Source of the DNA: Blautia sp.
GTDB taxonomy: Bacteria; Bacillota; Clostridia; Lachnospirales; Lachnospiraceae
Reading direction: 5' to 3'
NCBI GenBank assembly: GCA_022770365.1
Contig: JALEHU010000077.1
Location: 1-64,000 of the forward strand
Length of the DNA stretch: 64,000 bases
The notes under the pieces are model-generated. The model made no database searches. It worked only from the letters and a program-made list of their open reading frames with translations, and was not told where the DNA came from. A program made the position numbers and the translations under genes. How positions within the stretch are numbered: the first letter of the stretch is position 1; each line of letters starts with the position of its first letter. This document shows positions 48,635 through 64,000 of this stretch, in pieces.

Positions 48635-48664
48635 TTTTTCCCCCTTTTGGCAAAAAGAGAGATG

Positions 48665-48693
48665 CCGCAGTTTACTGCAGCACCTCCCTGCGG
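48665..48693 (-). promoter_or_regulatory. intercistronic hairpin after the fucoside-binding protein
   Basis: On the minus strand CCGCAG and CTGCGG bracket a second CTGCAG, 39 bases past the binding-protein stop. Hairpins here typically protect the binding-protein mRNA. There is no strong T-run. Confidence 0.45.
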
Positions 48694-48731
48694 AACGGAC
48701 TCGCCTGTCCGTCTTATCCATCTGAAATGCT

Positions 48732-49985
48732 TTACTGAATCGCAGCAATCGTTTCATCAAGTTTTTGAATATAAGTATCTACATCACGTTCCGGATCTGC
48801 TGCAAATTCTTCCTGCCAGGAACGGAATTCAGAATCATACTGACCGGTAAAGATATCTTCTGACTCATAGTTATAAACATTTCCACTCTTCATGATATCC
48901 ATGATATCTACAACTAATGGGGAAACGTTCTCCGTGGCAGCATCTGCGGAACAAGGAATATCTGTTCCCTTAGAGTTCCACATTTCCATTCCTTCTTCGC
49001 TTGCCATGAATTCAATAAATTTCATAGCTTCTTCCGGATGCTCCGTCTTTGAATAGATCATATAACTTCCACCAGATGCCAATCCCTGAATCGGGTCACC
49101 ATCTGGATTATTAGGAGTTGGGAAAAAACCTATTTTTTCTACCATGCCGCTATCCTGAAAAACTCCAATGTCCCAGTTTCCACCAATAAACATAGCAGCT
49201 TCTCCGTTCATAAGCATATTTCTAGCTTTATTTACATCTGTACCGAAATCATCTCCACCTACAAAAGAAAGTCTGTCTGCATTTCTCTGTACAACATCTC
49301 TGAATTCCGGATAGTCTGCAAATTTCTTTTCTCCGCTCATAATATCCTTAAACATCGTCGGATTCTGCTGTAAGCAGTATCCATAAAGATCACTTTGGAT
49401 ATCACACTGTGCGGTCCATCCTTCTTTGAATCCATGTGCAAAAGCAACAATTCCCGCATCCTGGAATTTCTGTGCTGCTTCCATCAGTTCCTCATGGGTT
49501 TTCGGTACATCTACTCCATTTTCTTCAAATACTTCTTTGTTGTAGAAAACACCCATACCACCCATATTGGTAGGAACTCCGTATACCTTGCCATCTACTT
49601 TCATGGACTCCAATGCTGCCTCGTCCACATGCTCCAAAAAATCCTGATCAGAAAGATCCATAATATGGCCAGCAGCAATTAAATCTGCGTAAACTTTCGG
49701 ACGGCCAAAAATAATATCTGGTGCATCTCCTCCTGCGATCTTTGTCTTCAGCATGCTTCCGTACTGGCTGTAATCAATTCCCTGCGCTTCGTATTTTACT
49801 CCGGGATTCCTTTCTGAAAGAAGTTCGCAGATGCTTTCCAGTTTTACTCTTCCATCCTCTTCTCCAATGTGATGGAAAATATTAACTACGGTTTCGTCAT
49901 CTGCATGTACTGAGGTAGCTCCTGCAACCATGCTGACTGCCATACAGGCAATTGATAAAAGTGCTGTTAATCTTTTTCCTTTCAT
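48732..49985 (-). CDS. sugar ABC transporter substrate-binding protein (fucoside locus)
   Basis: Extracellular CUT1 binding protein, 417 residues. The signal peptide (KGKRLTALLSIACMAVSMV) ends GATSVHA-DD; there is a cysteine at position 14 but no proper lipobox. The mature part has the family blocks GGDAPDIIFGRPKVYADL and YNKEVFEENGVDVPKTHEEL, and GGSYMIYSKTEHPEEAMKFI. Ligand is inferred from the adjacent fucosidase. AAGGAGG precedes the ATG. Confidence 0.92.
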   Translation of the reverse strand: MKGKRLTALLSIACMAVSMVAGATSVHADDETVVNIFHHIGEEDGRVKLESICELLSERNPGVKYEAQGIDYSQYGSMLKTKIAGGDAPDIIFGRPKVYADLIAAGHIMDLSDQDFLEHVDEAALESMKVDGKVYGVPTNMGGMGVFYNKEVFEENGVDVPKTHEELMEAAQKFQDAGIVAFAHGFKEGWTAQCDIQSDLYGYCLQQNPTMFKDIMSGEKKFADYPEFRDVVQRNADRLSFVGGDDFGTDVNKARNMLMNGEAAMFIGGNWDIGVFQDSGMVEKIGFFPTPNNPDGDPIQGLASGGSYMIYSKTEHPEEAMKFIEFMASEEGMEMWNSKGTDIPCSADAATENVSPLVVDIMDIMKSGNVYNYESEDIFTGQYDSEFRSWQEEFAADPERDVDTYIQKLDETIAAIQ

Positions 49986-50056
49986 AAAATGTATTCCTCC
50001 TTTTTTTGATAATACCAGTATAACAGTCCATCTTTGCAGTCTCTATCGGTCTGCTT

Positions 50057-51622
50057 TTACATAATATTAGAATTTTTTACTTTTTTACGATAATCACTTG
50101 GAGAACAGTTCTCTATTTTTTTAAACACCTGATAAAAATAGGTATAATCGCTGTACCCCACCTGTTCTGCCACTTCTACAACCCTGCATCCGGGGTGTCT
50201 TAAGAGTATCTTTGCTTTTTCAACCCTATACTCAGTCAAAATTTCCGAAAAGTTCTTTCCTGTTTCTTTCTTGAAAAGTCTGCTCAAATAAGACGCATTC
50301 ACTGCCATCTTATCCGCCAAATCCGTCAGTGAGATATTTTCTTTATAGTGAATTTGAATATAATTCATGGCATCCTTTATCAAGGGATTAAACTCCATTT
50401 TTCCCCTCTGGGATTTTTTCCCTATTTCTTCTAAAAAAACATCCATAAAATCTCTACAGCTTTTCTTTCCTGTCAGTTTATGTATTTTTCCCAATAATTC
50501 ATTTGTTTGGTCTTCCATACAAAAACGCCTTAAAAATGTAATGCAGATTTCTGAAATCAAACATTTGGCCCGGAATTCATTTCCTCCGGTTTCCTGAAAA
50601 ATATCCTCTATTAATTTTTGTGTTTTTTCTGAAATTTCCCTCCCTTCAAGATCCATTACAGACTGACAGAAATTATCCACCTCCCGAAAAAAGTCCCCAT
50701 TCTTTACTGCAGAACTACCGGAATAACTTTCCGCAAAAACGATTGTCTGCTCTCCTGAAAAATATACGCTTTCCATTACCTCCTGTACCTGCTTCCAGGA
50801 TTCCGAAAGATTTCTTAGATCATCACTGATCTTACTTACCACAAAACAACAGGATATTCCAAATTCTTCCAGAACTCTTTCGTTCAACACATGAAGTTTC
50901 TGTCGCAGGAACACTTTTCGTTCTCTGGCACTTGGTTTTTCTTTTTCGAAAATAATTAATACTTGGTTTTTCCCGGAAATCCACTCAAAAATATCCCCGT
51001 TATCCTTCTTGGTCTGACATTCCATCCACACAATTACTTGATTCCAAACTGATTTTTCCACAGAATTCTTATCAGAGCGCACCCGTACAAGAATAATATA
51101 ATAAATTCTTTTATAAAGTCCTAATTCAATCGCCTTCTCAGCCAACTGAAAATTTTCTGTATCCCGTTCCTTCAAAAACTTATACAAAAGCTGCTCTTGC
51201 AAAGCTTTTCGTGAAATACTTACCGTTCTATTCATAGTTTTTATTTTTTTCAGCTCCGCAATTACCTTTTGGACTTTTTCTTCCATCACATCATTTCTGA
51301 TCGGTTTCAGCACAAGATCACTGACGCCAAGAGACAATGCCTTTCTGGCATATTCAAACTCCTGGTATCCGGTAATCATAATAATCTGCAAATCAGGAAG
51401 TCTCTTTTTTGCATATTCTGTAAGTTCCAGGCCATCCATCCCCGGCATTTTAATATCTGTAATCAAAATATCCGGTTCTATTTGTTCAATCAGATTTTTC
51501 GCTGTGATTGCATCTGTTGCCTGTCCTTCTACACTACAGTCCATTGATGACCATTTAATCGTCTGTACCAAAGCCTGAACAATCACTGGTTTGTCGTCCA
51601 CGATAACAACCTTATATCTCAT
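50057..51622 (-). CDS. YesN-type response regulator with AraC output domain
   Basis: Partner of the adjacent kinase, expected to activate the fucoside importer operon. The receiver domain holds the acidic pair VDD and phospho-acceptor Asp56 in DILITDIKMPGMDG, then Lys in VLKPIRNDV. A long middle region of about 280 residues precedes a two-helix-turn-helix AraC domain (LTDLADKMAVNASYLSRLFK; VAEQVGYSDYTYFYQVFKK). The ATG at 51622 has GAGG nine bases upstream and overlaps the kinase end by 11 bases; longer in-frame starts exist to 51643. 521 residues. Confidence 0.93.
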   Translation of the reverse strand: MRYKVVIVDDKPVIVQALVQTIKWSSMDCSVEGQATDAITAKNLIEQIEPDILITDIKMPGMDGLELTEYAKKRLPDLQIIMITGYQEFEYARKALSLGVSDLVLKPIRNDVMEEKVQKVIAELKKIKTMNRTVSISRKALQEQLLYKFLKERDTENFQLAEKAIELGLYKRIYYIILVRVRSDKNSVEKSVWNQVIVWMECQTKKDNGDIFEWISGKNQVLIIFEKEKPSARERKVFLRQKLHVLNERVLEEFGISCCFVVSKISDDLRNLSESWKQVQEVMESVYFSGEQTIVFAESYSGSSAVKNGDFFREVDNFCQSVMDLEGREISEKTQKLIEDIFQETGGNEFRAKCLISEICITFLRRFCMEDQTNELLGKIHKLTGKKSCRDFMDVFLEEIGKKSQRGKMEFNPLIKDAMNYIQIHYKENISLTDLADKMAVNASYLSRLFKKETGKNFSEILTEYRVEKAKILLRHPGCRVVEVAEQVGYSDYTYFYQVFKKIENCSPSDYRKKVKNSNIM

Positions 51623-53408
51623 CTTCCTGTACCTCATCCTCAAAAATAATTGGAAGCCGTATATTAACAGCCGTTCCTTCCTGCTTCCTGCTTTCTATCT
51701 GTATTCCGTAAGACAAACCATAAAGAATCTGGATTCTCTTATGTACTGCACGTATTCCCACTTTTGTATGTTTAGAATCCGTCTTTTTTCCCTTCATAAC
51801 TTCTGTAATACGCTCTCCCGTTACCCCTACGCCATCGTCTACTATCTTTATAATCATATCTGTTTTGTCACAGCCAGCTACAATGCAAATATGTCCTTCC
51901 CCTATTTTCGGCTCAATTCCATGAAGAATAGAATTTTCTACCAATGGCTGGAGTATCAGTTTAGGCACCATAACCTCATTTAAGGCTTCCTCTACCTCAA
52001 AATCCACCTGCAGTTTATCCCCATAAGACAGTTTCTGTATTTCCACATATTGCCGGCTATTCTCCAGTTCTTCTTCTAACGTCACAAATTTCCGCTTATC
52101 ACTGATGGCCTCTCTTAAATAATTTCCCAGCATACAGATACTATCCGCAATCTTTTGCTGCCCATTTAATTTAGCCAAACTGCTGATACTCTCCAATGTA
52201 TTATAAAGAAAATGTGGATTGATCTTTGCCTGAAGAGAATCGTACTCAAACTGAAGTGCTTTAATTTCACTGTTTTTTTTCTGTATTTTTTCATTCGTTA
52301 CTGTTTGAAGGAGATTTTGAATCTGTACTGCCATATCGTTAAATTCTTCCGCAAGAAGTCCGATCTCATCTCTGCTCTCCGGACAAATCCTTCCTGAAAA
52401 ATCCCCCTTCGAAATACGGCGTATATTTTCCAGCAAAAGTCGGATATTCGAAGCAATCTGGCCCGATATTCCATACGCAAAAATTGTAGAAAGAATAATT
52501 GCAAACAAAGACAGACCAAAAAATGGAATCATCAATTTATGAAAAATTTCTGATGTAATAGATGATTCCGGCATAAGATTCATCACCTGAATACGCTTAT
52601 CCGCGGTTTTCTGAAGAGTATATAAATATTTTTTATGATGAAAATATACTTTCTGTTCCTGATCTGTCTCTTCCGGATAATTTTCCAGAATAACCCTTGC
52701 CAGTTCAGAGTTATTTTCATCGGTGGAAAGAAGAATCTCGCAGTTTCTATTTAACACAACAATCCCTGTTCCATCTTCCGTTATCCCATCATACAATTCT
52801 TCAAAATAGATCCTGCTGACTCCCACTGAAACAGCACCCACCGGGCTCATATTTACATAGTCAAACAGTAACTTTGTAGCAAATACTTCCTGCTCATTAC
52901 CTGGCTTCCAAAATGTGACGCCCCATTTTTCATAAGCAGTATCATAATCCAGGTATAATTTTTGCTGTTCGCTGTTGAGTTTTTCTCCTCTTCCATGGCT
53001 ATAATAAATCGTCCCATTATTATCACATACAATCACTTTAGTAATGTATTTATTAAAATTAATCAAATTATAACCCACTGCTTCTATCTGTTTTTTCCTG
53101 TCATATTTACTTTTCTCTGTAAGATTATTCACGTCTTTTCGCAAAAGCGCACTGAACGACACATTGTATGTATGAGAGGTAATAAGATTTTCCAAATTTC
53201 TCACAGCATAATTGTAATTTAAGCTCAGTTGTTCCATCAATTTTGCAGATTGTTCCTTAGTTCTGGAAAGAATTATCTTCCTGGAAATCCCATATCCGCA
53301 AACTCCCATTAATAAGGTCATAATCAAAATAACTCCCACACTGCTGACAAAAAGTTTCTGCCCGATTTTTAAATCATTGTATTTATGCGAAATCCTTTTT
53401 TTGCACAC
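51612..53408 (-). CDS. YesM-type sensor histidine kinase
   Basis: Membrane kinase of the LytS/YesM class that senses an extracellular sugar-related signal. Two membrane spans flank an extracytoplasmic sensor of about 250 residues (first span LFVSSVGVILIMTLLMGVCG; second IPFFGLSLFAIILSTIFAYG). HAMP follows, then the phospho-acceptor His in INPHFLYNTLESISSLAK and an ATPase domain with VVDDGVGVTG. The start is GTG 53408 after GGGGAAGGAAA. 598 residues. Confidence 0.93.
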   Translation of the reverse strand: MCKKRISHKYNDLKIGQKLFVSSVGVILIMTLLMGVCGYGISRKIILSRTKEQSAKLMEQLSLNYNYAVRNLENLITSHTYNVSFSALLRKDVNNLTEKSKYDRKKQIEAVGYNLINFNKYITKVIVCDNNGTIYYSHGRGEKLNSEQQKLYLDYDTAYEKWGVTFWKPGNEQEVFATKLLFDYVNMSPVGAVSVGVSRIYFEELYDGITEDGTGIVVLNRNCEILLSTDENNSELARVILENYPEETDQEQKVYFHHKKYLYTLQKTADKRIQVMNLMPESSITSEIFHKLMIPFFGLSLFAIILSTIFAYGISGQIASNIRLLLENIRRISKGDFSGRICPESRDEIGLLAEEFNDMAVQIQNLLQTVTNEKIQKKNSEIKALQFEYDSLQAKINPHFLYNTLESISSLAKLNGQQKIADSICMLGNYLREAISDKRKFVTLEEELENSRQYVEIQKLSYGDKLQVDFEVEEALNEVMVPKLILQPLVENSILHGIEPKIGEGHICIVAGCDKTDMIIKIVDDGVGVTGERITEVMKGKKTDSKHTKVGIRAVHKRIQILYGLSYGIQIESRKQEGTAVNIRLPIIFEDEVQEDEI

Positions 53409-53597
53409 TTTCCTTCCCCCATACTTTTCTACTAAAAAGTCTCTTTCTATAGTTTGATATAATTTCCCTTTTTATCATATCAAATTATTTATATCTTTCC
53501 AGTAAAAATCTTTTCCCATATATGTAGTATTTTTACCTCATTTTCCCCCCACCCTTTTCCTCATATACAACTCAGCCCAACAGCTCCTTTTCACTGC

Positions 53598-53636
53598 AAA
53601 AAATTCAGCCGCACTATGAGAAGTTCGGCTGTTGAA
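53598..53636 (-). terminator. terminator of the AraC regulator gene
   Basis: On the minus strand TTCAACAGCCG pairs with CGGCTGAA and is followed by six T, 24 bases after the stop codon. The remaining bases to the kinase gene (53409-53597) are AT-rich and hold its presumed promoter. Confidence 0.78.
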
Positions 53637-53659
53637 ATAAAATATAATTTGGTTACCCC

Positions 53660-54586
53660 TTATTTCTTCATCATCGACGCTGATCCTGTATATCCGCCTT
53701 TCTTGTATTCCTTTGGAGAAACACCTATCACCTTGCGGAACAGCCGTGAGAAATAATACTGGTCCTGATATCCAAGACACTGTCCGACCTCATATATATA
53801 GAGATTTGTAGACCGCAGGAGTTTACAGGCTTCCTGCATTTTGAGATGAATAAAAAAATCCATAGGCGCGCGCTGTGTATAACGCTGGAATATCAAATTA
53901 AGATAACTTTTGGAAAAATCAAATTCCTGCGCAATCTGATCCAATGTAAGATTTTCATAAAGATGCTGATAAAGATACCGTATAACGCTAGTCACATGAC
54001 GGTTCTGCTCGCCTGCTGACTGACTTCTTTCTCTGCAGTAAGTTTCCGCAAGGATCAGCGAAAGAATCTGCGCTATATAGATGAAATTTCCAAGCGTATA
54101 ATCTTCCCCCAGCACCTGCAGAAGCAATTCAAAATAAGACATCATGCGGTTGATCACACCTCTTGATTCCAGGTGCACTACATGCAGTTCTCTCAACGGA
54201 TAATATTCTGTATCCTCACCCTTAAAATGCACCCATAAAATACTCCATGGGTTTTCACGATTGGCATAATAACGATGTCCGCAGAAAGCAGGAATACAGA
54301 AGGCTTCATTCTTATGAAGCACATAAGACTGCCCGTTCATCAGCTCAATAGTTCCCTCACCTTCCATGCAGTAGATATAAATATGCTCTTCAATACCTTC
54401 CTTTCTTTCTCTGAAATGTCTTGCTGCATGAGGAAAAAATCCCGCATCTGTCAGATAAAGCCGTTTTACCTGCGGATGATTCACATACTCCTGGAAACTC
54501 TCCGTGGGAAGCACGTGCATCCATTCACCTTTGAATCCATCTTTTTTCGTTTGTTCTGATTCCATTTTTTCTATTGATTCATTCAT
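53660..54586 (-). CDS. AraC-family regulator with cupin-like sensor domain
   Basis: One-component sugar-responsive regulator of the MsmR/RafR/MelR type. The N-terminal cupin fold (about 30-150) includes HIYIYCMEGEGTIELMNGQS and FCIPAFCGHRYYA. The C-terminal AraC domain has two helix-turn-helices (LDQIAQEFDFSKSYLNLIFQ; EVGQCLGYQDQYYFSRLFRK) and ends VSPKEYKKGGY. This type usually sits next to an alpha-galactoside operon; here that operon lies 8 kb away, beyond the fucoside locus, on the same strand. 308 residues. Confidence 0.9.
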   Translation of the reverse strand: MNESIEKMESEQTKKDGFKGEWMHVLPTESFQEYVNHPQVKRLYLTDAGFFPHAARHFRERKEGIEEHIYIYCMEGEGTIELMNGQSYVLHKNEAFCIPAFCGHRYYANRENPWSILWVHFKGEDTEYYPLRELHVVHLESRGVINRMMSYFELLLQVLGEDYTLGNFIYIAQILSLILAETYCRERSQSAGEQNRHVTSVIRYLYQHLYENLTLDQIAQEFDFSKSYLNLIFQRYTQRAPMDFFIHLKMQEACKLLRSTNLYIYEVGQCLGYQDQYYFSRLFRKVIGVSPKEYKKGGYTGSASMMKK

Positions 54587-54726
54587 AATGTAAAGATTAC
54601 CATTTCCGTGGAATATTGTCCATCTTTTTCTCTGATGTTCTATTTTCTTTCATTCTTTTCCAGTTTATACTAATCTCACAAACATAAACCATACGAAACA
54701 AAAATATCATTCTTTTCACAAAATAA

Positions 54727-54752
54727 GGCTCAATCACAAATTTTGTGGGATT
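54727..54752 (+). repeat. IS terminal inverted repeat, transposase 3' end
   Basis: Begins GGCTCAATCACAAATTTTGT and ends GGGATT; contains the TGA stop of the transposase. Confidence 0.8.
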
Positions 54753-56181
54753 TAGGATTCCTCTCATAGCTCCGACGGCTCATATCGAATAGCTTCAGAA
54801 AGAAATATTCATCATCAGGATACCCGTATCCCTGTCTGCGAAGAGTCTTGATCTTGTTGTTGATACCTTCAATCTTTGCAGCTGAGATATTATAGGTTGC
54901 GTGGGCAATAATGCCCTCAAAGTGGTTGCTAAGAAGGCGCTCAAACCACAATAAGTGTGGATTGTTCGTCGCCTTGCACATATCCATGATACTGATGATG
55001 TCCTCTGCCATGACGGCTTCATCTTTCCGTGAATAGGCCAGGCTAAGCTTCTCTTTGATCAGATCCAGGGTAAAAAGCAGCTGGTTCTCCTGAAGCAGCG
55101 CATCATAACGCTCCTCATAACCTTCTTTGCGAACAATGCTGTCAGTTTTGAACAGACTGCTCCCTTTGTGGATCTGGCGTTCCTCTCTGGCATCGGCATC
55201 CTTGGATTGAAGAGTCTTTCTGGAAGACATCAGGATATATCGGGTCTTTTTTAAAGATCTGGCTGCTTCGATATTACCTTCTTCATAAAGTCGACGCTGC
55301 TCATCCTTGCGAACCTCACTTACAACCTTATCATTAAAGTTCTTTACAATATGAAAGTAATCGAATACCGGCTGAATATGAGGGCACTTCTCCTCGAAAG
55401 CTTCTTGAAAATCGGAGTTCATGTCACAGGCAACCGCCTCGACCTGATCCATCCATTTCAGACCGACATGCTCGATAAAGTCATATACGACTTGCTTCTT
55501 CTTGCCACCGGCGATCCACAGGATATGACCGGTCTCCATGTCAATGATGTGTGTCGCATAGCGGTATCCATTATGCAGCTTGAATTCATCGATCCCCAGA
55601 AACTTTGCGGGTTTTTCAGGTTTGATCAGTGTTCCGTCGGTAGTGGTGTACAATTCCTGGAGTCGTTCTCTATCGATATCCTTCACGGTATTCTTGCCAA
55701 GACCGGTAAGTTCTGCCACTTCCTTGTTTGTGTAAACGCCAGAAGCAAGCAGATCACGGGTATACTGGCACAGTTCTTCCGTGATCATATGCCCAGGAGC
55801 CTTGAAAGAGATAAACTGCATCTTTGTATTTCTACACTTTGGACAGACATACTGGTTGCGGGAAAAGGTCACACAGCTAAGGCTGCCACCAAAGGGAAGA
55901 TGTCTCAGATTAATAGAAGGATGATTATTCACATGCATCTTGGAACCGCAAGAGCAAAGAAGATTTTCTTCAGATGCATCGAGCGAACCCTCGAAACAAA
56001 ACACTGTTCGACCGGATTTAGAGGTTTTAACAGAGGTTGTTTCATTATGAAAGCCATAAAGGCAGGAAGGAATCTTCAAAAAATCGGTAGATTGAGTAAA
56101 TACTAATTGCCCATTTGCTTCTTTGCGTATATAATCCAAGACAGAGGATCTCCTTTCGATTGGGTAAAATACGTCGGCCAA
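54730..56181 (-). CDS. ISL3-family transposase
   Basis: DDE transposase of about 480 residues. An N-terminal zinc-ribbon-like part (LLCSCGSKMHVN ... VCPKCRNTKM) and a helix-turn-helix (NKEVAELTGLGKNTVKDIDR) precede the catalytic domain: first Asp in FLGIDEFKLHNGYRY, second in EAVACDMNSDFQEAF followed by FDYFHIVKNFNDKV, and Glu in SAAKIEGINNKIKTLRRQGY. The frame is intact, so the enzyme may be active. The start is unclear: no ATG fits; TTG near 56139 has AGGAGA nine bases upstream, while the open frame extends to TTG 56181. Confidence 0.92.
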   Translation of the reverse strand: MADVFYPIERRSSVLDYIRKEANGQLVFTQSTDFLKIPSCLYGFHNETTSVKTSKSGRTVFCFEGSLDASEENLLCSCGSKMHVNNHPSINLRHLPFGGSLSCVTFSRNQYVCPKCRNTKMQFISFKAPGHMITEELCQYTRDLLASGVYTNKEVAELTGLGKNTVKDIDRERLQELYTTTDGTLIKPEKPAKFLGIDEFKLHNGYRYATHIIDMETGHILWIAGGKKKQVVYDFIEHVGLKWMDQVEAVACDMNSDFQEAFEEKCPHIQPVFDYFHIVKNFNDKVVSEVRKDEQRRLYEEGNIEAARSLKKTRYILMSSRKTLQSKDADAREERQIHKGSSLFKTDSIVRKEGYEERYDALLQENQLLFTLDLIKEKLSLAYSRKDEAVMAEDIISIMDMCKATNNPHLLWFERLLSNHFEGIIAHATYNISAAKIEGINNKIKTLRRQGYGYPDDEYFFLKLFDMSRRSYERNPKSHKICD

Positions 56182-56282
56182 AACGTTATTCCAATCTTAA
56201 TGGAAGATCCTTTTTTATTCAATTAAAATCTGAGCCAGAGCACCAACTGTTCTTAGGCTCCTGAGTCGGAGGGGAAGAAACC

Positions 56283-56415
56283 AGCCCCCCCCCTAAGGGG
56301 CTTGGCCTTTACATGGTTCTCAGGCAATGCTACACTACCGATTCCCGACGGTTCATAATTGCAACTGTTCTTGAGTTTTTCGCCGTCGGGGTGATCACCC
56401 AACGCATTGCCTGAG
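56283..56415. other. structured non-coding segment inside the IS right end
   Basis: AGCC with a run of nine C (56285-56293) pairs with AAGGGGCT to 56302. A second, larger structure pairs CTCAGGCAATGC (56319-56330) with GCATTGCCTGAG (56404-56415), enclosing CCCGACGG (56344-56351) with CCGTCGGG (56383-56390). AACTGTTCTT occurs twice (56245, 56363). It may be an encoded RNA or transposase-binding region. Confidence 0.55.
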
Positions 56416-56467
56416 GTTCATGTCAAGGCTGGCGGACGGCATAGAATATCTATAACGTGGTAATGTC

Positions 56468-56493
56468 AATCCCACGAAAAAAATGATTGACCC
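56468..56493 (-). repeat. IS terminal inverted repeat, transposase 5' side
   Basis: On the minus strand GGGTCAATCATTTTTTTCGT then GGGATT, matching the other end at 20 of 26 positions. Confidence 0.75.
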
Positions 56494-56521
56494 AGAAATA
56501 TTATAAATATCGAGATATTTT

Positions 56522-56551
56522 TTGAAAAAATATTATCACATGTGATATTAT
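56522..56551 (+). promoter_or_regulatory. promoter with palindromic operator
   Basis: TTGAAA (56522-56527), 18-base spacer and TATTAT (56546-56551). The spacer contains the perfect 14-bp palindrome TATCACATGTGATA (56534-56547). It lies just outside the IS and about 100 bases before the 184-residue gene. Confidence 0.6.
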
Positions 56552-56653
56552 GAAATCAGTCCAAAGGTAATAACACTGAAAATTAAGTGCAGTAGTGTAT
56601 ACCAGTGGACAGGCGGAAGAAGGAATAACAGACCTGTATAATGGAGGAAGATA

Positions 56654-57208
56654 ATGATCAGAGTAAAAAAGAAACCAGAGGCAGCTATTGTTGAAGCTTA
56701 TTGTCTCGGTGAGGAAAATGAAGTTTTAAACCGTCTTATGGAAGAGGGAAAACTGGTGGAGAAAGTTCCTGGAGTGTTTGAAGTTTTTTCTCAGGAAGCG
56801 GTTAATGGAAAAGGAGAGATTGCCCATACCGGTGATTTTATTAAAATTGATGCTTCGGGATTTCCTTATTTCAATCAGGCAGAATATTTTCGGAAAAAAC
56901 ACAGAAGCCTGGGCGGAAATAAATATCTGCAGAGCACGTCTCCTTATGATGCATGGACAGTAGAGGAGGATATGTGTGAAGAAATCGATTACCTGATAAA
57001 AGAAAAGGGTCTGGTCATTGATGAGTCAAGCGAAGAACGTTATTTTTCTGCTCCGCTTGATGGTACCATAGTGTCTGCAGCCAGAGATGCAGTGATTATG
57101 TTTTATGAAATTGTTCGTGATGATAACGGGAAGATTCAGGATGTGAATTTTCATTTTGTGAAACGGGACATCTTTGATGAGACGTATGATATTCTTGAAG
57201 AAGGCTGA
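56654..57208 (+). CDS. uncharacterised protein, 184 residues
   Basis: Not recognised with confidence. No signal peptide or membrane span; mixed alpha/beta composition, acidic. Notable conserved-looking segments are GDFIKIDASGFPYFN, the aromatic/charged WTVEEDMCEEIDYLIKE, and RYFSAPLDGTIVSAARDAV. It resembles phage/plasmid-associated 'PGDYI'-type proteins only weakly. ATG 56654 follows GGAGGAAGATA. Own promoter/palindrome upstream and terminator downstream suggest a single regulated gene. It lies between the IS and the BTAD cluster. Confidence 0.75.
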   Translation: MIRVKKKPEAAIVEAYCLGEENEVLNRLMEEGKLVEKVPGVFEVFSQEAVNGKGEIAHTGDFIKIDASGFPYFNQAEYFRKKHRSLGGNKYLQSTSPYDAWTVEEDMCEEIDYLIKEKGLVIDESSEERYFSAPLDGTIVSAARDAVIMFYEIVRDDNGKIQDVNFHFVKRDIFDETYDILEEG

Positions 57209-57226
57209 AAAAATAGTTTTGCTCTG

Positions 57227-57255
57227 AACGCTCACTGAAAAGTGGGCGTTTTTTT
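57227..57255 (+). terminator. terminator of the 184-residue gene
   Basis: Ten-pair stem AACGCTCACT/AGTGGGCGTT (one G-U type pair) with GAAA loop and a seven-T tail, 18 bases past the stop. Confidence 0.88.
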
Positions 57256-57417
57256 ATGATATATAATGGATATTATAAAAAGGTAACATAAATAATAAAA
57301 ATTAAAAATTAACTAGCATTATGTGACTTTTTTGTAGTATAATACTATCAATGATGATGTATAACATTATGCAGCAGCGGATTTTGACGGATGGTTTGTC
57401 AGATGTGAGGTGGAGAA

Positions 57418-57591
57418 ATGAAGAAGAAGCAAACCTTTATAATTGAAATAAGTGATATTCAGAATCAGAGTTATCAGGGAGAAATTGAGTGGGTGCAGGG
57501 ACATAAAAAACAAGCGTTCAGGAGCGTCATGGAATTGCTGAGATTACTGGATTCGGCAGTCCATGAGGCGGAAGATAACGAGCATGTATAA
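57418..57591 (+). CDS. 57-residue protein with one QG module
   Basis: Short ORF starting at ATG 57418 with GAGGTGGAGAA upstream. The protein (KKKQTFIIEISDIQNQSYQG ... FRSVMELLRLLDSAV) is basic then acidic, soluble, with no signal peptide. Residues 6-48 align without gaps to both halves of the 149-residue protein encoded 1.3 kb downstream: I-x-I at the same spacing, Q-G-x-I, exactly 12 residues, then F-R-S-x-M-E-L-L. Function unknown; probably a beta-hairpin plus helix unit. It precedes the BTAD regulator by 90 bases and is probably co-transcribed with it. Confidence 0.75.
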   Translation: MKKKQTFIIEISDIQNQSYQGEIEWVQGHKKQAFRSVMELLRLLDSAVHEAEDNEHV

Positions 57592-57681
57592 ATGATGAGA
57601 CAGAACGCAGGGTGAAACAGAATATACGATAAGAAGTTCTGTTTGCGGTTACAACAATAATGGTGATAAACGGAGAAAATT

Positions 57682-58908
57682 ATGGCAGAAAAAATGGAAA
57701 TGCATCTTTTGGGAAGTTTTTATCTGAGAAATAAGAATGCTGTTTTGGACGAGGAGATCCTTCATTCAGATAAACTTACGAAGATTCTTGTGTACCTTAT
57801 TATCCACAGGGACAGGGCAGTTCTTCATCAGGAGCTGATGGAGGTTTTTGGAGCAGGGAATTCCCAGAATCCGCAGGGAGCCCTGAAGAATCTTATGTAT
57901 CGTCTTCGTACAGCTTTAAAAGTATTTGGTGAAGAAGAATATGTCTGTACATCATTCGGTGCATATCGATGGAATCCGGATGTTGAAGTTAAAACAGATT
58001 ATGAATGCTTTGAAAAAATGGTTTCAGAAGCTGCAGATGAAAAGGATGAAACGAAGAAAAAAGAACTCTGCAGAAAGGCAATAACTGAATACAGGGGGAA
58101 TGTTTTTAAGAGGATAAACAGGGAAACATGGATGCTTGCAAGAGTTGAGGAGTATCGGTCTTTGTTTATAGATCTGGTGAAAAGTCTTGCGATAATATAC
58201 GAGAAAGAAAAAGACTGGGAGGAACTGGAACATCTTTGCGATCAGGCATTGAGTGCAGACCCGCTGGATGAAGATTTTCATTACTGGATTGTGGAAAGTC
58301 TGTTGGAACAGAATAAAAATGATATGGCGATACTTCATTACGAAAATGCCAGCAGGATGCTGTATGAAAGTCTTGGAATCCGTACGACAGAGAAAATGCA
58401 GTCAATATTCAGAAAAGCAGTGGAAAAAGAAAAAGGAGATGTGAAAGATATTCAAATTCTGACTGCTGAACTGGAAGAAACAGAGAAACCAGAGGGAGCC
58501 TTTTTCTGCGAATACCAGAATTTTCTTCAGATTTACAGAGTTGAAGTAAGAAGAAACAGCAGACTGGGAATATCTGAATATCTCGTACTTATAACTTTGA
58601 GGCGCACAGACAGTGTTAAGCGAGAACCTGAAGCAGATTCAGGTCTTGCAGAAGGAATCCAGATTCTTGAGAATATATTGAAAGAAATGCTGAGGGTAGG
58701 AGATGTGGTTGCCAGATACAGTTTTGCTCAATATATTATTTTGCTTCCAATCTGTAATTATGAATCCAGTGTTATGGTAGCAGAAAGGATAAAGACAGCA
58801 TTTCAGAGAAGTATAGGAAAAAAACGCCTTGAACTGGTGTATGAGGTGGAAGAACTGATGGATGAGAAAAATTTATTAGAGAAGGAAGACGGTGAGAATG
58901 GTCAGTAA
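57682..58908 (+). CDS. BTAD (SARP-like) regulator with GGDEF-like C-terminal domain
   Basis: Probable DNA-binding regulator. An N-terminal winged-helix part (about 5-100: HLLGSFYLRNKNAV ... KNLMYRLRTALK) and a bacterial transcriptional activation domain of helical repeats (about 105-255; YECFEKMVSEAADEKD, AIIYEKEKDWEELEHLCDQA, MAILHYENASRMLYESLGI) match AfsR/SARP proteins. Residues about 275-400 resemble a degenerate GGDEF domain: a glutamate/arginine-rich first part, EMLRVGDVVARYSFAQYIIL (SFAQY in place of GGDEF) and VAERIKTAFQ. Catalysis is not expected. 408 residues; the end overlaps the next gene by 11 bases. Confidence 0.82.
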   Translation: MAEKMEMHLLGSFYLRNKNAVLDEEILHSDKLTKILVYLIIHRDRAVLHQELMEVFGAGNSQNPQGALKNLMYRLRTALKVFGEEEYVCTSFGAYRWNPDVEVKTDYECFEKMVSEAADEKDETKKKELCRKAITEYRGNVFKRINRETWMLARVEEYRSLFIDLVKSLAIIYEKEKDWEELEHLCDQALSADPLDEDFHYWIVESLLEQNKNDMAILHYENASRMLYESLGIRTTEKMQSIFRKAVEKEKGDVKDIQILTAELEETEKPEGAFFCEYQNFLQIYRVEVRRNSRLGISEYLVLITLRRTDSVKREPEADSGLAEGIQILENILKEMLRVGDVVARYSFAQYIILLPICNYESSVMVAERIKTAFQRSIGKKRLELVYEVEELMDEKNLLEKEDGENGQ

Positions 58909-59341
58909 AAAAGGCATACCGGAAAGATTTCCTCCCAATGCGGTGCGAATCTGTATTGATAATTACAGGAATTATGACATACAAGGCAGAATATACAGCA
59001 AGTTTCGAAAAGATTCGCTGGTATTTTGCAGCGTTGGAGAAATGTTTCTGAAAGTGGATGATATGTTTGATGAGAACGGTTTTCCTCAGACTTTTCAGGA
59101 GAGAAGGTATTTTGATGAAAACAGGAAGGAAAAGCGTCGTGCAGTGCCTGTTGTTTTTGAAAATGATGATATGATACTGAGACAGAAAGGTGGCATGAAA
59201 ACCTATGATATTGTGATCAACTCACGAAGAAAATCAAACTGGCAGGGAATTATCCGCAAAGAAAACGGGATAGAAGATGTTTTATTCAGGAGTGAGATGG
59301 AGCTGCTGAATTTTATCTGGGATGATATCAGCAAAAAATGA
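58898..59341 (+). CDS. 147-149-residue protein with two QG modules
   Basis: Function unknown, soluble. Two copies of one ~40-residue module are visible: AVRICIDNYRNYDIQGRIYS ... FCSVGEMFLKVDDMF at the N-terminus, and TYDIVINSRRKSNWQGIIRK ... FRSEMELLNFIWDDI at the C-terminus. Both place I-x-I, Q-G-x-I and F-x-S at identical spacing to the 57-residue protein. A linker (SQTFQERRYFDENRKEKRRA) separates them. ATG 58898 lies within the end of the BTAD gene (translational coupling); an in-frame GTG is two codons earlier. Confidence 0.78.
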   Translation: MVSKKGIPERFPPNAVRICIDNYRNYDIQGRIYSKFRKDSLVFCSVGEMFLKVDDMFDENGFPQTFQERRYFDENRKEKRRAVPVVFENDDMILRQKGGMKTYDIVINSRRKSNWQGIIRKENGIEDVLFRSEMELLNFIWDDISKK

Positions 59342-59390
59342 TCAGTATTTGTTGAACGGTTTATATTACGTTTAAAATGGAGGAAAAACA

Positions 59391-60312
59391 ATGAAAAAAA
59401 CGGGGAAAGCAAAAACAGGTATTCTTTGACAATGAGAACTCTGGCGGTTTTTCTGACCTGTGTCATGCTGTTTACTTCCAGCGGATTTGAGGCGATGGCT
59501 TCTGAATCTGCTGATGTGGAATGGTTTGGGGTGGACGAAAAAGAACAAACCAGCAGAACGAGCGCATACAGCAGACACAAAAGTCAGCGACGGAGTTCGT
59601 TTCTGAAGAACCGGGTGATATTGGAAGCAGTTCAGAACTTGCAAGTGCCTGCAGCGGATGAGGCAGAAGAACCGGAAGAGAGTATAGAGGAAAATACCGA
59701 AGGAAGTTCAGAGGAAGATACCGAAGAAAATACCGAAGAAAATACCGAAGGAAGCATAGAAGAAAATATCGAAGATAATATTGAGGAGAATAACACTCAG
59801 TCAGTAGAAGAATCAGCTGAGGAAGAAACCTCAAAAGAAGAAACGGCAGAAGCAGGAGAATTACCGGCAAAAGGCCTGGTAAGCGTGACAATGGATTTCA
59901 AGACACCTTGATGTGAAATATGCCATTTCGGAAGATTTGAATTGCGAACGGTGAATTTAAAGCGAAGGAAATTGTTATGAGAGATGACACCACCAAAGTT
60001 CAGATTTCCAAGATGGATGTCACCAATAACGAAGAACTGGCAGGCGCCCATCTGGCTCTGGTCGATGAGGAAAATAACATAACTGCCGAGTGGATTTCCA
60101 ATGGAAAGCCGAAGGAATTCAACGGTAAGCTTCTAGCAGGCAAAACATATGCACTGAGGGAAATTACAGCGCCTTCCGGTTATGATCTGGCGAAAGATAT
60201 TACCTTCACGATAAATGAGAATGGAGAAATTCAGAAAATAGTCATGGAAGATAAAGTATCTGACGGCAAATGCAGCGTAACTGTTCAGAAACTGGTGATG
60301 ATGGACGCATAA
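59391..60312 (+). pseudogene. disrupted SpaA-like (Cna-B type) surface protein
   Basis: GGAGG and ATG 59391 open a frame that hits TGA after 12 codons. One extra A in the run of seven A after the ATG would restore KKNGESKNRYSLTMRTLAVF, a normal signal peptide continuing into the open frame 59426-59911. That frame ends SGFEAMASESADVEW ... then Glu/Asn-rich EENTEENTEGS repeats. Near 59900 the frame changes twice (DVKYAISEDLN in one frame, ANGEFKAKEIVMRDDTTKVQ in another), and a Cna-B-like domain follows to 60312 (ALREITAPSGYDLAKDITF). No sorting signal remains. It belongs by position to the QG-module/BTAD cluster. Confidence 0.78.
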
Positions 60313-60515
60313 AAAACATAATATGCATAATAAGCAAAAAACATCTTGTATCTGAAGGTGTAGTACAGGAGGGTGGACCTGTGATCTGCCCTCCTGTGGC
60401 TTACATGAAATTTTTAACAATTTAAACACAATTTTCCCACAAAGTAATCACAAATTCAAAATATACTCTAAATCATCAAAAGGAAATAAATGATGATCCA
60501 GGGAGGGATTTGATT

Positions 60516-61898
60516 ATGATGAATAAAGAAGAAAAAAACGCAAAGATCAGAAAGATGGTCAAAAAAGGTGCAGGCATCAGCTTATGTGCAGTACTGGCCG
60601 GAGGCCTGGCAGCAGGTGCTTTTGAAGGTGTGAATGCTATGACAGGATGGAACCATACAGATGTAAATGCGGCTGTGCAGAGTGATGATGTGAAGCTGAC
60701 CAAGACCAAAATTGAACTTACCGATTCAAAAGAAGAGAAAGAAGATACAGAGACAAGAGTAAAAGGCGGTCTTGATGTTTCTGATATTGTAGATGAGGCA
60801 ATGCCGAGCGTTGTATCCATTACCACGAAATCTCTGGAGGAGGTTCAGAGTTATTTCGGATTTTACCAGTATGGCAACGGCCGTTCCTATGCACCGCAGC
60901 AGGAGGTAGAGGGAAGCGGTTCCGGTATTATTATTGGTAAGAATGATGAATCTCTTCTGATCGCTACGAACTATCATGTAATTGAAGGTGCGGAGACGGT
61001 ATCAGTTTCCTTTATTGACGGAAGTTCTCTTGAAGCAACTGTGAACGGTTATGACGAGGACAGAGATCTGGCAGTCGTATCTGTACCGCTGGATGATATC
61101 TCTAAAGACACACTTGATGAAATTTCCATTGCAACGATCGGCAGCTCCGATGATCTGAAGGTTGGCGAGCAGGTTGTGGCAATTGGTAATGCTCTTGGTT
61201 ACGGACAGTCTGTAACAACCGGTATCGTCAGCGCCAAGAATCGCAGACTGGATGATTCTGCACAGATTGTTGATGAAGACGATGAGGACGGTGTAAATCT
61301 GATCCAGACAGATGCAGCGATCAACCCGGGCAATAGCGGCGGTGCTCTTCTGAACATGAACGGTGAAGTTGTGGGAATCAACTCCGCAAAACTGGCATCC
61401 ACCAGTGTGGAAGGTATGGGATATGCAATTGCAATTTCCGATGTTTCTGATGTACTTGAAAAGCTGATGAATGAAACACCAAGAGATAAGATCGAAGACG
61501 GTAATCACGGAATTCTTGGCATTACCGGCGCAACGGTCAGCGATGAAGCAGTTGAGTTATACGGAATGCCTGCCGGTGTCTATGTAAAAGAAATCACAGA
61601 AGATGGCGCTGCAGAGCAGGCAGGAATCAAGGCCAATGCTATTATTACAGAATTTGACGGCAAGAGAGTAAAAAATATTGAAACTCTTGTAGATCTTCTT
61701 GAATACTATGCACCTGAGGAAGAAGTAGAAGTTACTTACGAAGTGGTAGACGGAGAAAGCTACAAAGAGAAGACCGTAACCGTAACTCTTGGCAAAAACA
61801 CCGAAAACGACAAGAAGGATACCCGGGAAGAAAAGGACGATGCTGACGAAGAAGAAAGTACAGATAATTTATTTGAAGACTGGGAAAATAATAAATAA
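60516..61898 (+). CDS. HtrA/DegP-type membrane-anchored serine protease
   Basis: Extracytoplasmic quality-control protease. A short basic cytoplasmic N-terminus and a hydrophobic anchor (GAGISLCAVLAGGLAAGAF) lead to a trypsin-like domain with the triad His in ATNYHVIEGAE, Asp in DEDRDLAVVSV and Ser in NPGNSGGALLN. One PDZ domain follows (AGVYVKEITEDGAAEQAGIK). The C-terminus is an acidic tail (KKDTREEKDDADEEESTDN). ATG 60516 follows GGGAGGG; the frame also opens at TTG 60510. About 460 residues. The gap upstream holds an imperfect hairpin (CAGGAGGG/CCCTCCTG near 60367). Confidence 0.95.
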   Translation: MMNKEEKNAKIRKMVKKGAGISLCAVLAGGLAAGAFEGVNAMTGWNHTDVNAAVQSDDVKLTKTKIELTDSKEEKEDTETRVKGGLDVSDIVDEAMPSVVSITTKSLEEVQSYFGFYQYGNGRSYAPQQEVEGSGSGIIIGKNDESLLIATNYHVIEGAETVSVSFIDGSSLEATVNGYDEDRDLAVVSVPLDDISKDTLDEISIATIGSSDDLKVGEQVVAIGNALGYGQSVTTGIVSAKNRRLDDSAQIVDEDDEDGVNLIQTDAAINPGNSGGALLNMNGEVVGINSAKLASTSVEGMGYAIAISDVSDVLEKLMNETPRDKIEDGNHGILGITGATVSDEAVELYGMPAGVYVKEITEDGAAEQAGIKANAIITEFDGKRVKNIETLVDLLEYYAPEEEVEVTYEVVDGESYKEKTVTVTLGKNTENDKKDTREEKDDADEEESTDNLFEDWENNK

Positions 61899-61905
61899 GG
61901 ATATG

Positions 61906-61941
61906 AGAAGCCGGCGGACATTTTCCGCAGGCTTCTTTTTC
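61906..61941 (+). terminator. terminator of the HtrA gene
   Basis: Stem AGAAGCC/GGCTTCT with inner GCGGA/TCCGC, followed by TTTTTC, 8 bases past the stop. Confidence 0.82.
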
Positions 61942-61974
61942 TTTGTTCTGATAACATCCATTGTTTCTATGATA

Positions 61975-62003
61975 TTGCAAGTACAATATATCTCTGTTAT
62001 ACT
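61975..62003 (+). promoter_or_regulatory. promoter of the nucleoside hydrolase operon
   Basis: TTGCAA (61975-61980), 17-base spacer, TATACT (61998-62003). The transcript would begin at about 62010, at the base of a strong leader stem. Confidence 0.75.
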
Positions 62004-62013
62004 AAAAACAGCT

Positions 62014-62133
62014 GGTACATCGTCGGACAGACAACAGGCAGCAGGAATACGGCAGCCGTACTGCGCAGCCGGAAAGCGTGTCATGGAGGTCAGGATGAGA
62101 AAGGCAGGTCCGGTGTCTGACGGACGATGTACC
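62014..62133 (+). promoter_or_regulatory. structured 5' leader of the nucleoside hydrolase gene
   Basis: GGTACATCGTC (62014-62024) pairs perfectly with GACGATGTACC (62123-62133) and the pairing continues inward (CAGAC with GTCTG), closing a 120-base domain. Inside is a small perfect stem TACGG-CAG-CCGTA. The domain starts within a few bases of the predicted transcription start and ends 28 bases before the ATG. I do not match it to a known riboswitch class. Confidence 0.6.
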
Positions 62134-62161
62134 GGACACTACAGAGAATGAGGAAGAATCA

Positions 62162-63145
62162 ATGGAAAAGAGAGAAATTATTATGGACTGCGATCCGGGC
62201 ACGGATGATGCTATTGCCCTTGCCTATGCGGCAGCCCATACGGAAGAACTGAAACTTCTTGCAATCACTACGGTAAGCGGTAATCAGTCTGTTGAGAAAG
62301 TGACCGTGAATGCTTTGCGTCTTGCAGAGTTTTATAACCTTGATGTGCCTGTGGCTAAAGGCATGGATACACCATTGACAAGAGAACCGGTTTATGCATC
62401 GAAATTTCACGGAGAGACAGGACTTGGACAATGTGTTCTTCCCGCTGCTTCCAGAAAAGCGGAAGAGGAACATGCGGTGCTGTTTCTTCACAGGCTTCTG
62501 GCAGAACTGCCGGAAGGAAAAAAAGTAACAATTGTGGCAACCGGCCCACTGACCAATATAGCCATGCTTCTGAAATTATTCCCGCAGGTGAAGAAACACA
62601 TCCGTGAGATCGTGTTTATGGGTGGCGCGGCAATGGGAGGAAATGTCACGCCGACTGCAGAATTTAATATTTATACAGATCCGGAGGCTGCCAGGATTGT
62701 ATTTCGATCCGGGGTTCCTCTTGTGATGTGCGGCCTGGATGCAACACTGAAATGTACCCTGAAAAGAAAACAGATTATCAAACTCTGCCAGTCAGGCAAT
62801 CCTGCAGCCGGTTTATGCGGTGATCTTGCAGGATACAGCCTCGAAAACACTTCCAACAAATACAGAGGAGAGGTAAGTATCCATGATGTGGTGCCGTTGA
62901 TGTATCTGCTCCATCCGGATATTTTTAAGATCCAGAGCACCATTCTGGATGTGGATTGTTCCGATGGACCGGCAAGAGGAACCACGCTTTGTGATTTCCG
63001 CTGGTGGGAACATGAGGAAGAAGAGATGGATGCATTTATTCTCATGGATGCAGATGGAACCAGATTTCAGGAAGAACTTATTACCGATATTTATGAGCTC
63101 GGAGAACGCATAAAGCGCCAAAAAGAAGAAGGAATGCATTCATGA
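62162..63145 (+). CDS. inosine-uridine preferring nucleoside hydrolase
   Basis: Cleaves ribonucleosides to base and ribose for salvage. The Ca-binding N-terminal signature DCDPGTDDAIAL is intact, followed by VSGNQSVEKVTVNALRLAE and VFMGGAAMGGNVTPTAEFN; the His/Asp region VSIHDVVPLMYLL is near the C-terminus. 327 residues, no signal peptide. ATG 62162 follows GAGGAAGAATCA. It overlaps the next gene by four bases (ATGA). Base preference cannot be assigned. Confidence 0.94.
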   Translation: MEKREIIMDCDPGTDDAIALAYAAAHTEELKLLAITTVSGNQSVEKVTVNALRLAEFYNLDVPVAKGMDTPLTREPVYASKFHGETGLGQCVLPAASRKAEEEHAVLFLHRLLAELPEGKKVTIVATGPLTNIAMLLKLFPQVKKHIREIVFMGGAAMGGNVTPTAEFNIYTDPEAARIVFRSGVPLVMCGLDATLKCTLKRKQIIKLCQSGNPAAGLCGDLAGYSLENTSNKYRGEVSIHDVVPLMYLLHPDIFKIQSTILDVDCSDGPARGTTLCDFRWWEHEEEEMDAFILMDADGTRFQEELITDIYELGERIKRQKEEGMHS

Positions 63146-64000
63146 ATTATATTGTTTTTGATCTGGAATGGAATCAGAGCCCGAGCGGCAAGAAATATTC
63201 CAACAGCCGCCTGCCCTTTGAGATCATTGAGATCGGTGCTGTAAAGCTGAACGAACGCATGGAAACGGTTGATAATTTTCAGAGACTGATAAAACCGCAG
63301 GTTTATAACTGGATACATGACAGTATTCATGAAGTGATTCATGTGGATTATAAAGATCTGGTCAATGGAACACCATTTCCCCTGGCGGCAGAGGAATTTC
63401 TGGAATGGTGCGGACCGGAATGGCGATTTTTTACCTGGGGAAACCAGGATGTGATGGAATTACAGAGAAATCTCAAGTATTATGAAATGCTGTCAAAGCT
63501 TCCCGGCCCTGTCACTTATTATGATGTGCAGAAACTTTTCAGTATCTGTTACGAGGACGGGAAAATACGGCGATCATTGGAATATGCTGCGGATTATCTG
63601 GAAATCTCTAAAAATCAGGGATTCCACCGTGCACTTGCGGATGCTTACTATACCAGTGAAGTGCTGAAAAAAATCGAACCGGAATGCATTTTTCCCAACT
63701 CCTCTATAGATGTATATCAGAATCCCAGGAAGAAAAAAGATGAAATTCATATATCCTATCCCACTTATGATAAATTTGTCTCCAGAGAATTTGTCGACAG
63801 GGAAAAAATCATGAAGGACAGAGAGGTGAACAGCACCCGGTGTCCTGTATGCCATCTTCCATCCAGAAGGAAAATCCGCTGGTTTATCAATAATTCCAAA
63901 ATGTATGAAAGTGTTTCTCTTTGTCAGGAGCATGGTTATGTGAAAGGAAAAATTAAGATACGCCGGACGGAGGAGGAACGGTATTATGCGATTAAAACCT
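63142..64000 (+). CDS. 3'-5' exonuclease, DEDDh type (KapD-like), cut by the window end
   Basis: The frame opens at ATG 63142, overlapping the nucleoside hydrolase stop, and is still open at 64000 (286 codons seen). The exonuclease fold shows Exo I VFDLEWNQSP with Asp-x-Glu, Exo II TWGNQDVMELQRN with Asp, and Exo III FHRALADAYYTSEVL with His and Asp. Behind it is a Cys-rich stretch (TRCPVCHLPSRRKIRW, SLCQEHG) that could bind zinc. KapD of Bacillus (inhibitor of sporulation kinase A) is a relative; the role here is unknown. Confidence 0.88.
   Translation, partial: MNYIVFDLEWNQSPSGKKYSNSRLPFEIIEIGAVKLNERMETVDNFQRLIKPQVYNWIHDSIHEVIHVDYKDLVNGTPFPLAAEEFLEWCGPEWRFFTWGNQDVMELQRNLKYYEMLSKLPGPVTYYDVQKLFSICYEDGKIRRSLEYAADYLEISKNQGFHRALADAYYTSEVLKKIEPECIFPNSSIDVYQNPRKKKDEIHISYPTYDKFVSREFVDREKIMKDREVNSTRCPVCHLPSRRKIRWFINNSKMYESVSLCQEHGYVKGKIKIRRTEEERYYAIKT

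Follow-up and report, generated by a model that had tools for sequence, protein, structure and literature searches.

QG-module proteins beside a putative SARP-like regulator of surface genes in Blautia sp. and its relatives

Pili and matrix fibers are important in attachment and biofilm, and the SARP mode of action is best known from the antibiotic clusters of Streptomyces. Here we analyze a stretch of 64,000 nucleotides (nt) from Blautia sp. (Lachnospiraceae; assembly GCA_022770365.1, contig JALEHU010000077.1, positions 1 to 64,000; hereafter the window), in which a gene for a BTAD regulator stands between genes for two small proteins of 57 and 149 residues that carry one and two copies, respectively, of a short module, here called the QG module, next to a SpaA-type surface gene. 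From the letters alone, a regulated surface-adhesin system had been suggested for this region, with the QG proteins as sensors or modulators (the sequence-only reading).

The closest described regulators are the SARP activators (AfsR, ActII-ORF4, PimR) and EmbR, which have a winged helix and a BTAD domain in common with the window regulator. SARP operators are described, in the part of the source available, as direct repeats, classically 11-nt units that overlap the −35 box (PMC10972967). Among surface structures, the sipW-bsaA operon of C. perfringens requires the two-component system BsaRS, and the available part of that source names no BTAD regulator (PMC7395162). Among the matches listed for the open-licence literature, by titles and the beginnings of abstracts, there was no account of a BTAD or SARP regulator that controls pili or fibres in Lachnospiraceae or Clostridia, and no paper on the QG module. 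The module family, its predicted fold, its linkage to BTAD and surface genes, an operator and a partial match of that operator to the regulator clade were computed here. The account that we consider probable is that a SARP-like activator with an operator of its own drives QG-headed surface operons, and that the QG proteins act with the regulator.

The QG module and its genomic neighborhood

The module is present three times without gaps, once in the 57-residue and twice in the 149-residue protein, with the spacing given in the sequence-only reading: IEI-8-QGEI-10-FRS, ICI-8-QGRI-10-FCS and IVI-8-QGII-10-FRS. A profile of 49 one-module relatives, from which the window sequences were excluded, scores these copies at 70.9, 18.8 and 20.4 bits, whereas none of 10,000 shuffles exceeds 10.2 bits. 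Among two-module relatives the N-terminal and C-terminal modules are homologous (hhalign 90.6%), as are the N-terminal modules and the one-module proteins (98.6%); crosswise scores in the 149-residue protein stay below the shuffle maxima, with 6.6 bits for the N-terminal profile on copy 2 (maximum 7.9) and 2.3 bits for the C-terminal profile on copy 1 (maximum 9.4). The AlphaFold2 models (pLDDT 86.2 for the 57-residue protein; pLDDT 84.3 and pTM 0.78 for the 149-residue protein) place three strands and a helix in the same order in all three copies, and the predicted folds agree rather than differ.

The QG glycine is conserved in 100% and the F-R-S phenylalanine in 97% of 339 module copies. Neither window protein matches a Pfam or NCBIfam model up to E 1, the best PHROG match has an E-value of 0.15, and no signal peptide is evident. 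Of the genomes scanned with a nine-module profile, 72 of 397 from the family and 26 of 299 from the phylum have a match, the genome of the window included. A scan of named genomes returned 317 relatives, the best 80 of which were kept; these include proteins from Eubacterium ramulus, Blautia parvula, Faecalicatena contorta, Coprococcus comes, Oliverpabstia intestinalis and Oribacterium parvum. Judged by these comparisons, QG is a module family so far unnamed, without a fitting Pfam or NCBIfam model. Proteins with three modules are found as well, in frames of 271–310 residues (L126, L128, L133, L138 and L140); four of these five loci have no BTAD match in the fetched stretch, all five carry a TGTAAC-type operator of the kind described below, and one of the genes stands 5′ of a 3,275-residue InlB-repeat protein.

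The best QG match in each of 96 genomes was taken with its surroundings, 20 kb at most, and these regions were compared with 40 control stretches of 20 kb, taken from the same contigs in 40 of these genomes; neighbor classes were assigned with home-made profiles, single examples of which were checked against family models, and a QG frame is missing from one of the 96 regions (L166). BTAD regulators of this subfamily occur in 65 of the 96 QG regions, 58 of them within 1 kb of QG, and in 0/40 controls, and genes for SpaA, class C sortase, SipW or TasA-like proteins occur in 45/96 regions and 2/40 controls. Without the eight genomes of the seed alignment, the counts are 57/88 for BTAD and 42/88 for the surface machinery. 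The co-occurrence with BTAD and surface genes that the sequence-only reading proposed to look for is borne out in these genomes.

The counts of BTAD-to-QG distances, giant SpaA proteins and site densities, including the comparison of half-site with regulator clade, rest on a set of 98 regions that includes the window and L168 (chosen for the BTAD gene), both of which are dropped from the set of 96; the sets L071–L168 and L169–L248 share loci (L085 = L178, L100 = L174 and L076 = L184). In 94 of 130 cases, a QG gene on the same strand follows the BTAD gene within 600 nt, with no other QG, SpaA or BTAD match in between. QG lies at most 400 nt upstream of 28 of the 38 giant SpaA proteins (at least 700 residues) and of none of the 34 smaller ones. 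When the first ATG with a Shine-Dalgarno-like stretch is taken as the adhesin start, an overlap of exactly 11 nt between the QG stop and that ATG is seen in 13 of 27 rows (11 of 24 without three duplicates). By a home-made hydrophobicity rule, the gene 3′ of QG is predicted to be secreted in 68 of 91 cases and, in a second set, in 43 of 64, compared with 81 of 500 control pairs. The full arrangement, seen in L170, L178, L181 and L192, comprises the BTAD gene, a two-module QG, a one-module QG, a tip adhesin of 1,530–1,712 residues, an LPXTG pilin of 474–549 residues and two sortases. VWA, DUF7604, SpaA, pilin-backbone and LPXTG-anchor domains were found in the neighbors that were checked, and other giants near QG carry Listeria-Bacteroides repeats and VWA.

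Three further loci are of note for their gene content. Two one-module QG genes stand beside a 1,386-residue protein with a signal-like start in L103 (9941–20000), together with a further frame of at least 1,431 residues that is cut by the edge of the stretch, and a 2,726-residue repeat protein in L095 (1002–10114) is flanked by QG genes on both sides. The unverified fecal 'phage' scaffold MT836211 (L289, 9809–11751), which is probably a bacterial contig, carries a BTAD gene, a two-module QG and a one-module QG.

The short distance to giant SpaA proteins (28/38) and the 11-nt coding overlap (13/27 rows) also argue for another explanation, namely that the QG proteins serve the adhesin itself, as helpers in the cytosol or partners in the translation of very large secreted proteins, and are merely co-regulated; such QG–adhesin pairs are likewise present in fetched stretches without a BTAD match (L174, L175, L186 and L190). 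However, in 60 of 130 cases it is the two-module QG that is the nearest QG, SpaA or BTAD match within 600 nt downstream of the regulator, one regulator is fused to two QG modules, and no large secreted neighbor is seen for the QG genes in L099, L105 and L140. This explanation is possible but unlikely. The preferred assignment of the QG proteins, as partners or feedback elements of the regulator, is suggested by adjacency, by that one fusion and by the coding overlap.

The regulator and its predicted operator

The regulator between the QG genes is a BTAD protein, as first read (PF03704, 55.3 bits against a cut-off of 22.1; E 1.3e-14). Taken alone, its winged helix falls below the cut-off of PF00486 (20.1 against 26.2), whereas that of a relative (L088) lies above it with 28.1, and the profile of the regulator family matches the PhoB-type winged helix of 5dcl over positions 26–103 (E 5.8e-7). 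Over winged helix and BTAD together, the family profile matches AfsR (8hvr, E 2.9e-14) and EmbR (2fez, E 1.5e-6); the very best rows of the search against structures are designed TPR proteins. The C-terminal third of the profile matches diguanylate cyclase structures (3ign, E 1.6e-5), which identifies a GGDEF-type domain in the family; the window protein itself remains below the cut-off of PF00990 (21.6 against 23.8; E 2e-4). The GG(D/E)EF catalytic motif is kept in none of the 46 aligned regulators, the usual sequence at its site being YSxSQ(Y/F), and since the motif is absent from all 46, a docking or sensing function is probable for the third domain.

A candidate operator was first sighted 5′ of 20 operons in which a one-module QG gene precedes an adhesin, as TGTAATG repeats 12 nt apart. 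It takes the SARP-like form of two TGTRAY repeats 11–12 nt apart, upstream of a −10 box. The double repeat precedes 41 of 141 QG starts, compared with 3 of 310 control starts and none of 79 BTAD starts, and a half-site plus −10 box precedes 37, 4 and 1 of the same starts, respectively. With a looser −10 box these numbers become 50, 16 and 2; in 46 of the 50 QG cases the −10 box follows at a spacing of 10 or 11 nt (9–12 nt were allowed, 10 and 11 being preferred on ties). Site density amounts to 31.5/Mb and 18.4/Mb in QG regions, 1.2/Mb in control regions and 0.6–1.2/Mb in reversed sequence. Of 67 unique sites in QG regions, 44 precede QG, 12 stand before TasA, SipW or SpaA genes and 6 before other secreted genes, and the remaining 5 have something else or nothing behind them; several QG regions without a nearby BTAD gene still carry the operator.

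Whole genomes were searched for 40 of the 72 QG-positive genomes. The strict 11-nt form gives 54 sites, in 26 of the 40 genomes, compared with 7 for the backwards pattern, and the strict 12-nt form gives 26 compared with 3; a QG or BTAD gene is found no more than 8 kb from 32 of the 54 and from 10 of the 26 sites. The 11-nt pattern, the only one applied to 23 genomes that lack a QG match, gives 6 sites there and 3 backwards. Three of these six stand before predicted secreted genes (L304, L317 and L318), one before another gene and two before none; from these three secreted-gene sites, the TGTRAY repeat may serve a wider surface regulon.

The type of half-site tracks similarity between regulators: the nearest neighbor agrees in 20 of 31 cases where 8.8 are expected, and 0 of 2000 permutations reach the observed separation. 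When only regulators whose region contains a site are considered, the five nearest to that of the window all go with TGTGAC. The computed evidence for a pairing of regulator and operator appears good though incomplete.

From this material we infer binding, activation and a role of the QG proteins as follows. The regulator would be a SARP-like (AfsR/EmbR-like) activator of a unit that controls surface genes. It would bind the TGTRAY direct repeats about where a −35 box would be, 10–11 nt before the −10 box, and thereby switch on QG-headed operons for secreted proteins, i.e., sortase pili, SipW/TasA-type fibers, and VWA or InlB-repeat giants. The small QG proteins would act together with the regulator: the two-module QG, made beside it, probably docks on its GGDEF-like domain, and the one-module QG, first in the target operon and often with its stop overlapping the adhesin start, probably reports expression of the operon back to it. 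A bolder version, which we put forward as doubtful, is that QG is a new intracellular regulatory module family across Bacillota that couples translation of giant adhesins or fibers to a SARP-like activator, with one-module QG (made with the adhesin) and two-module QG (made with the regulator) competing for the dead GGDEF domain and so metering the surface fiber.

Several observations weigh against the proposed activator and operator. With respect to linkage, 31 of the 96 QG regions lack a BTAD gene and 22 of these lack surface matches too, and seen from the regulator, 15 of 29 homologs (L003–L031) have QG within 1.5 kb. The natural regulator–QG–QG fusion, a single frame of 612 residues, is a single case (1 of 77 genomes with a match), and the same match holds one stop in G095 and G028 and three stops in G267 and G394. 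Distances of the regulators and of the two-module QG proteins correlate (r 0.71 over 57 loci; permutation maximum 0.27), a value that is uncorrected for the species tree and that shared descent alone could yield. As to the operator, the initial count of 22 exact heptamer repeats, against 1.0 in shuffles, comes from the 20 sequences in which the motif was first seen and which were counted again later, and spacings of 9, 10, 11 and 13 nt are raised as well (9–14). The double repeat is absent from 100 of the 141 QG starts. The 22 strict 11-nt sites far from QG and BTAD genes comprise 7 in front of a gene predicted to be secreted, 5 in front of another gene and 10 without a following gene, and 16 of the 26 strict 12-nt sites are equally far. 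The two regulators most similar to that of the window, in the genomes G152 (48% identity) and G121 (43%), have no strict site nearby, and G121 has none at all. In the window itself the second direct repeat is missing, and the strict patterns find no site there.

The locus in the window and a second unit in the same genome

The features of the window locus are collected in Table 1. Upstream of the 57-residue gene lies a candidate promoter, TGTGAC-N10-TATAAT, which is the only occurrence of TGTRAC-N9..11-TANANT on either strand of the window; its −10 box is not listed by a sigma-70 scan that requires a −35 hexamer. The inverted near-copy further upstream is a possible second contact. The consensus scan found 6 terminator-like hairpins in the region where 1.8 are expected from shuffles.

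Table 1 Features of the QG/BTAD locus (positions in the window)
Feature	Position	Strand	Basis
Terminator-like hairpin and T run, between the preceding gene (56654–57208) and the QG/BTAD unit	57226–57251	+	Consensus scan
GTAACATAA, inverted near-copy (8/9) of TTATGTGAC at 57319–57327	57283–57291	−	Read by eye
Operator half-site TGTGAC	57322–57327	+	Pattern search; same place relative to the −10 box as in relatives
−10 box TATAAT, 10 nt after the half-site	57338–57343	+	Pattern search
57-residue QG protein, one module (QG1 type)	57418–57591	+	Open frame, profile scores; strands 7–15, 18–25 and 30–34, helix 37–55
408-residue regulator: winged helix, BTAD (TPR-like), C-terminal GGDEF-like domain without GGDEF motif	57682–58908	+	Pfam, profile matches
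149-residue QG protein, two modules (QG2 type)	58892–59341	+	Open frame, profile scores, structure model
QG module copy 1 of the 149-residue protein (residues 17–61)	58940–59074	+	Profile scores, structure model
QG module copy 2 of the 149-residue protein (residues 103–147)	59198–59332	+	Profile scores, structure model
SpaA/Cna-B-type surface gene remnant, three frames	59392–60312	+	Frame reading; SpaA domain in fragment 59977–60312 (Pfam)

The small genes had been read as bracketing and overlapping the regulator on both sides. The 149-residue gene does overlap it, by 17 nt from a start at GTG 58892 or by 11 nt from ATG 58898, but the 57-residue gene stops 90 nt before it. Similarly, the SpaA-like gene said to follow directly has a genuine SpaA domain (PF17802, 61.2 bits against a cut-off of 23.1; E 1.1e-16) but is a frameshifted remnant of 0.9 kb rather than an intact gene: its ATG at 59392, preceded by a ribosome-binding-site-like GGAGG, a signal-peptide-like stretch (by eye) and the SpaA domain are each in a different frame. 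A sortase profile has no match in positions 47401–64000, so the link to class C sortases is not seen at this locus. The regulated surface-adhesin system of the sequence-only reading hence survives in its linkage, in the agreement of folds and in the secreted gene after QG, but not in an intact surface gene in the window or in the double overlap. In terms of the proposed SARP-like activator, what remains in the window would be the regulator, the two QG genes and one TGTGAC half-site with its −10 box, and the target surface gene would have decayed. Outside the unit, a 184-residue protein encoded 5′ of the hairpin (56654–57208, plus strand) matches no Pfam or NCBIfam model at E-values up to 1.

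With its surface gene lost, the window unit may be a relic or an orphan regulator. That it is a relic, with regulator and QG genes being lost after decay of the surface gene, agrees with the SpaA remnant in three frames, with the single half-site that remains and with a 483-residue frame 1.2 kb upstream (54730–56181, minus strand), which by eye looks like an ISL3-type transposase; in addition, QG is not matched in the sole other genome of the same genus in the sample, G263. The lack of a strict site near the two closest regulators makes the activator account slightly less and the relic slightly more credible. On the other hand, the frames of the regulator and of the two QG proteins are all uninterrupted and match their families, and the half-site and −10 box are of the type found with related regulators, and on balance we judge decay of the whole unit to be rather unlikely. 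A HicB-like or dsRBD-like role of QG, in nucleic-acid binding or as an antitoxin and apart from the work of the regulator, is highly improbable. For the HicB-like/UPF0150 fold (structure 2yzt) the scores are weak, and neither QG protein matches a Pfam or NCBIfam model within E 1, a partner toxin not having been searched for.

A second unit in the same genome (L072, contig 116, 11421–14367) consists of a BTAD regulator, a 79-residue one-module QG and a SpaA-domain gene cut by the contig end. Its operator, at 12981–13015, is a strict 12-nt site of TGTAAC/TGTAAT type, the only site of that form found in the genome, and lies 53 nt before the frame of this other QG gene. Since the unit on contig 116 has its own type of site, the two regulators of the genome probably do not share targets.

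Comparison with described systems

Pilus operons of the SpaA/SpaH type resemble the QG operons of relatives in a 1,631-residue adhesin with VWA and SpaA domains, in the protein after it, which matches pilin-backbone, SpaA and LPXTG-anchor models, and in a class C sortase above cut-off. They differ in that the QG operons are headed by BTAD and QG genes, and in the window only the SpaA remnant is kept. Compared with the SipW/TasA-BsaA matrix operons, one neighbor passes the model for SipW-dependent signal peptides (TIGR04088) and one that for signal peptidase I (TIGR02228); the BsaA and SipW models themselves match neighbors below their cut-offs.

Compared with SARPs, the predicted operators of relatives are alike in being direct repeats; the window has one half-site only, whereas double repeats are enriched in relatives (41/141 against 3/310). 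PimR likewise joins a SARP domain to a cyclase-related half, according to the part of the source at hand (PMC3367932). The QG system is set apart by its C-terminal GGDEF-like domain, its small QG neighbors, its occurrence in Bacillota, surface fibers in place of antibiotic genes, and TGTRAY repeats. A predicted activator, an operator and a new module family together make a directly testable regulon, and the operator also precedes some surface genes elsewhere in the genomes (7 of the 22 far sites). If this account is correct, the SARP mode of action extends from antibiotic clusters to the surface fibers of anaerobic Bacillota. As far as comparison of sequences can tell, the predicted mode of action of the regulator is SARP-like, and the QG module fits no Pfam or NCBIfam family.

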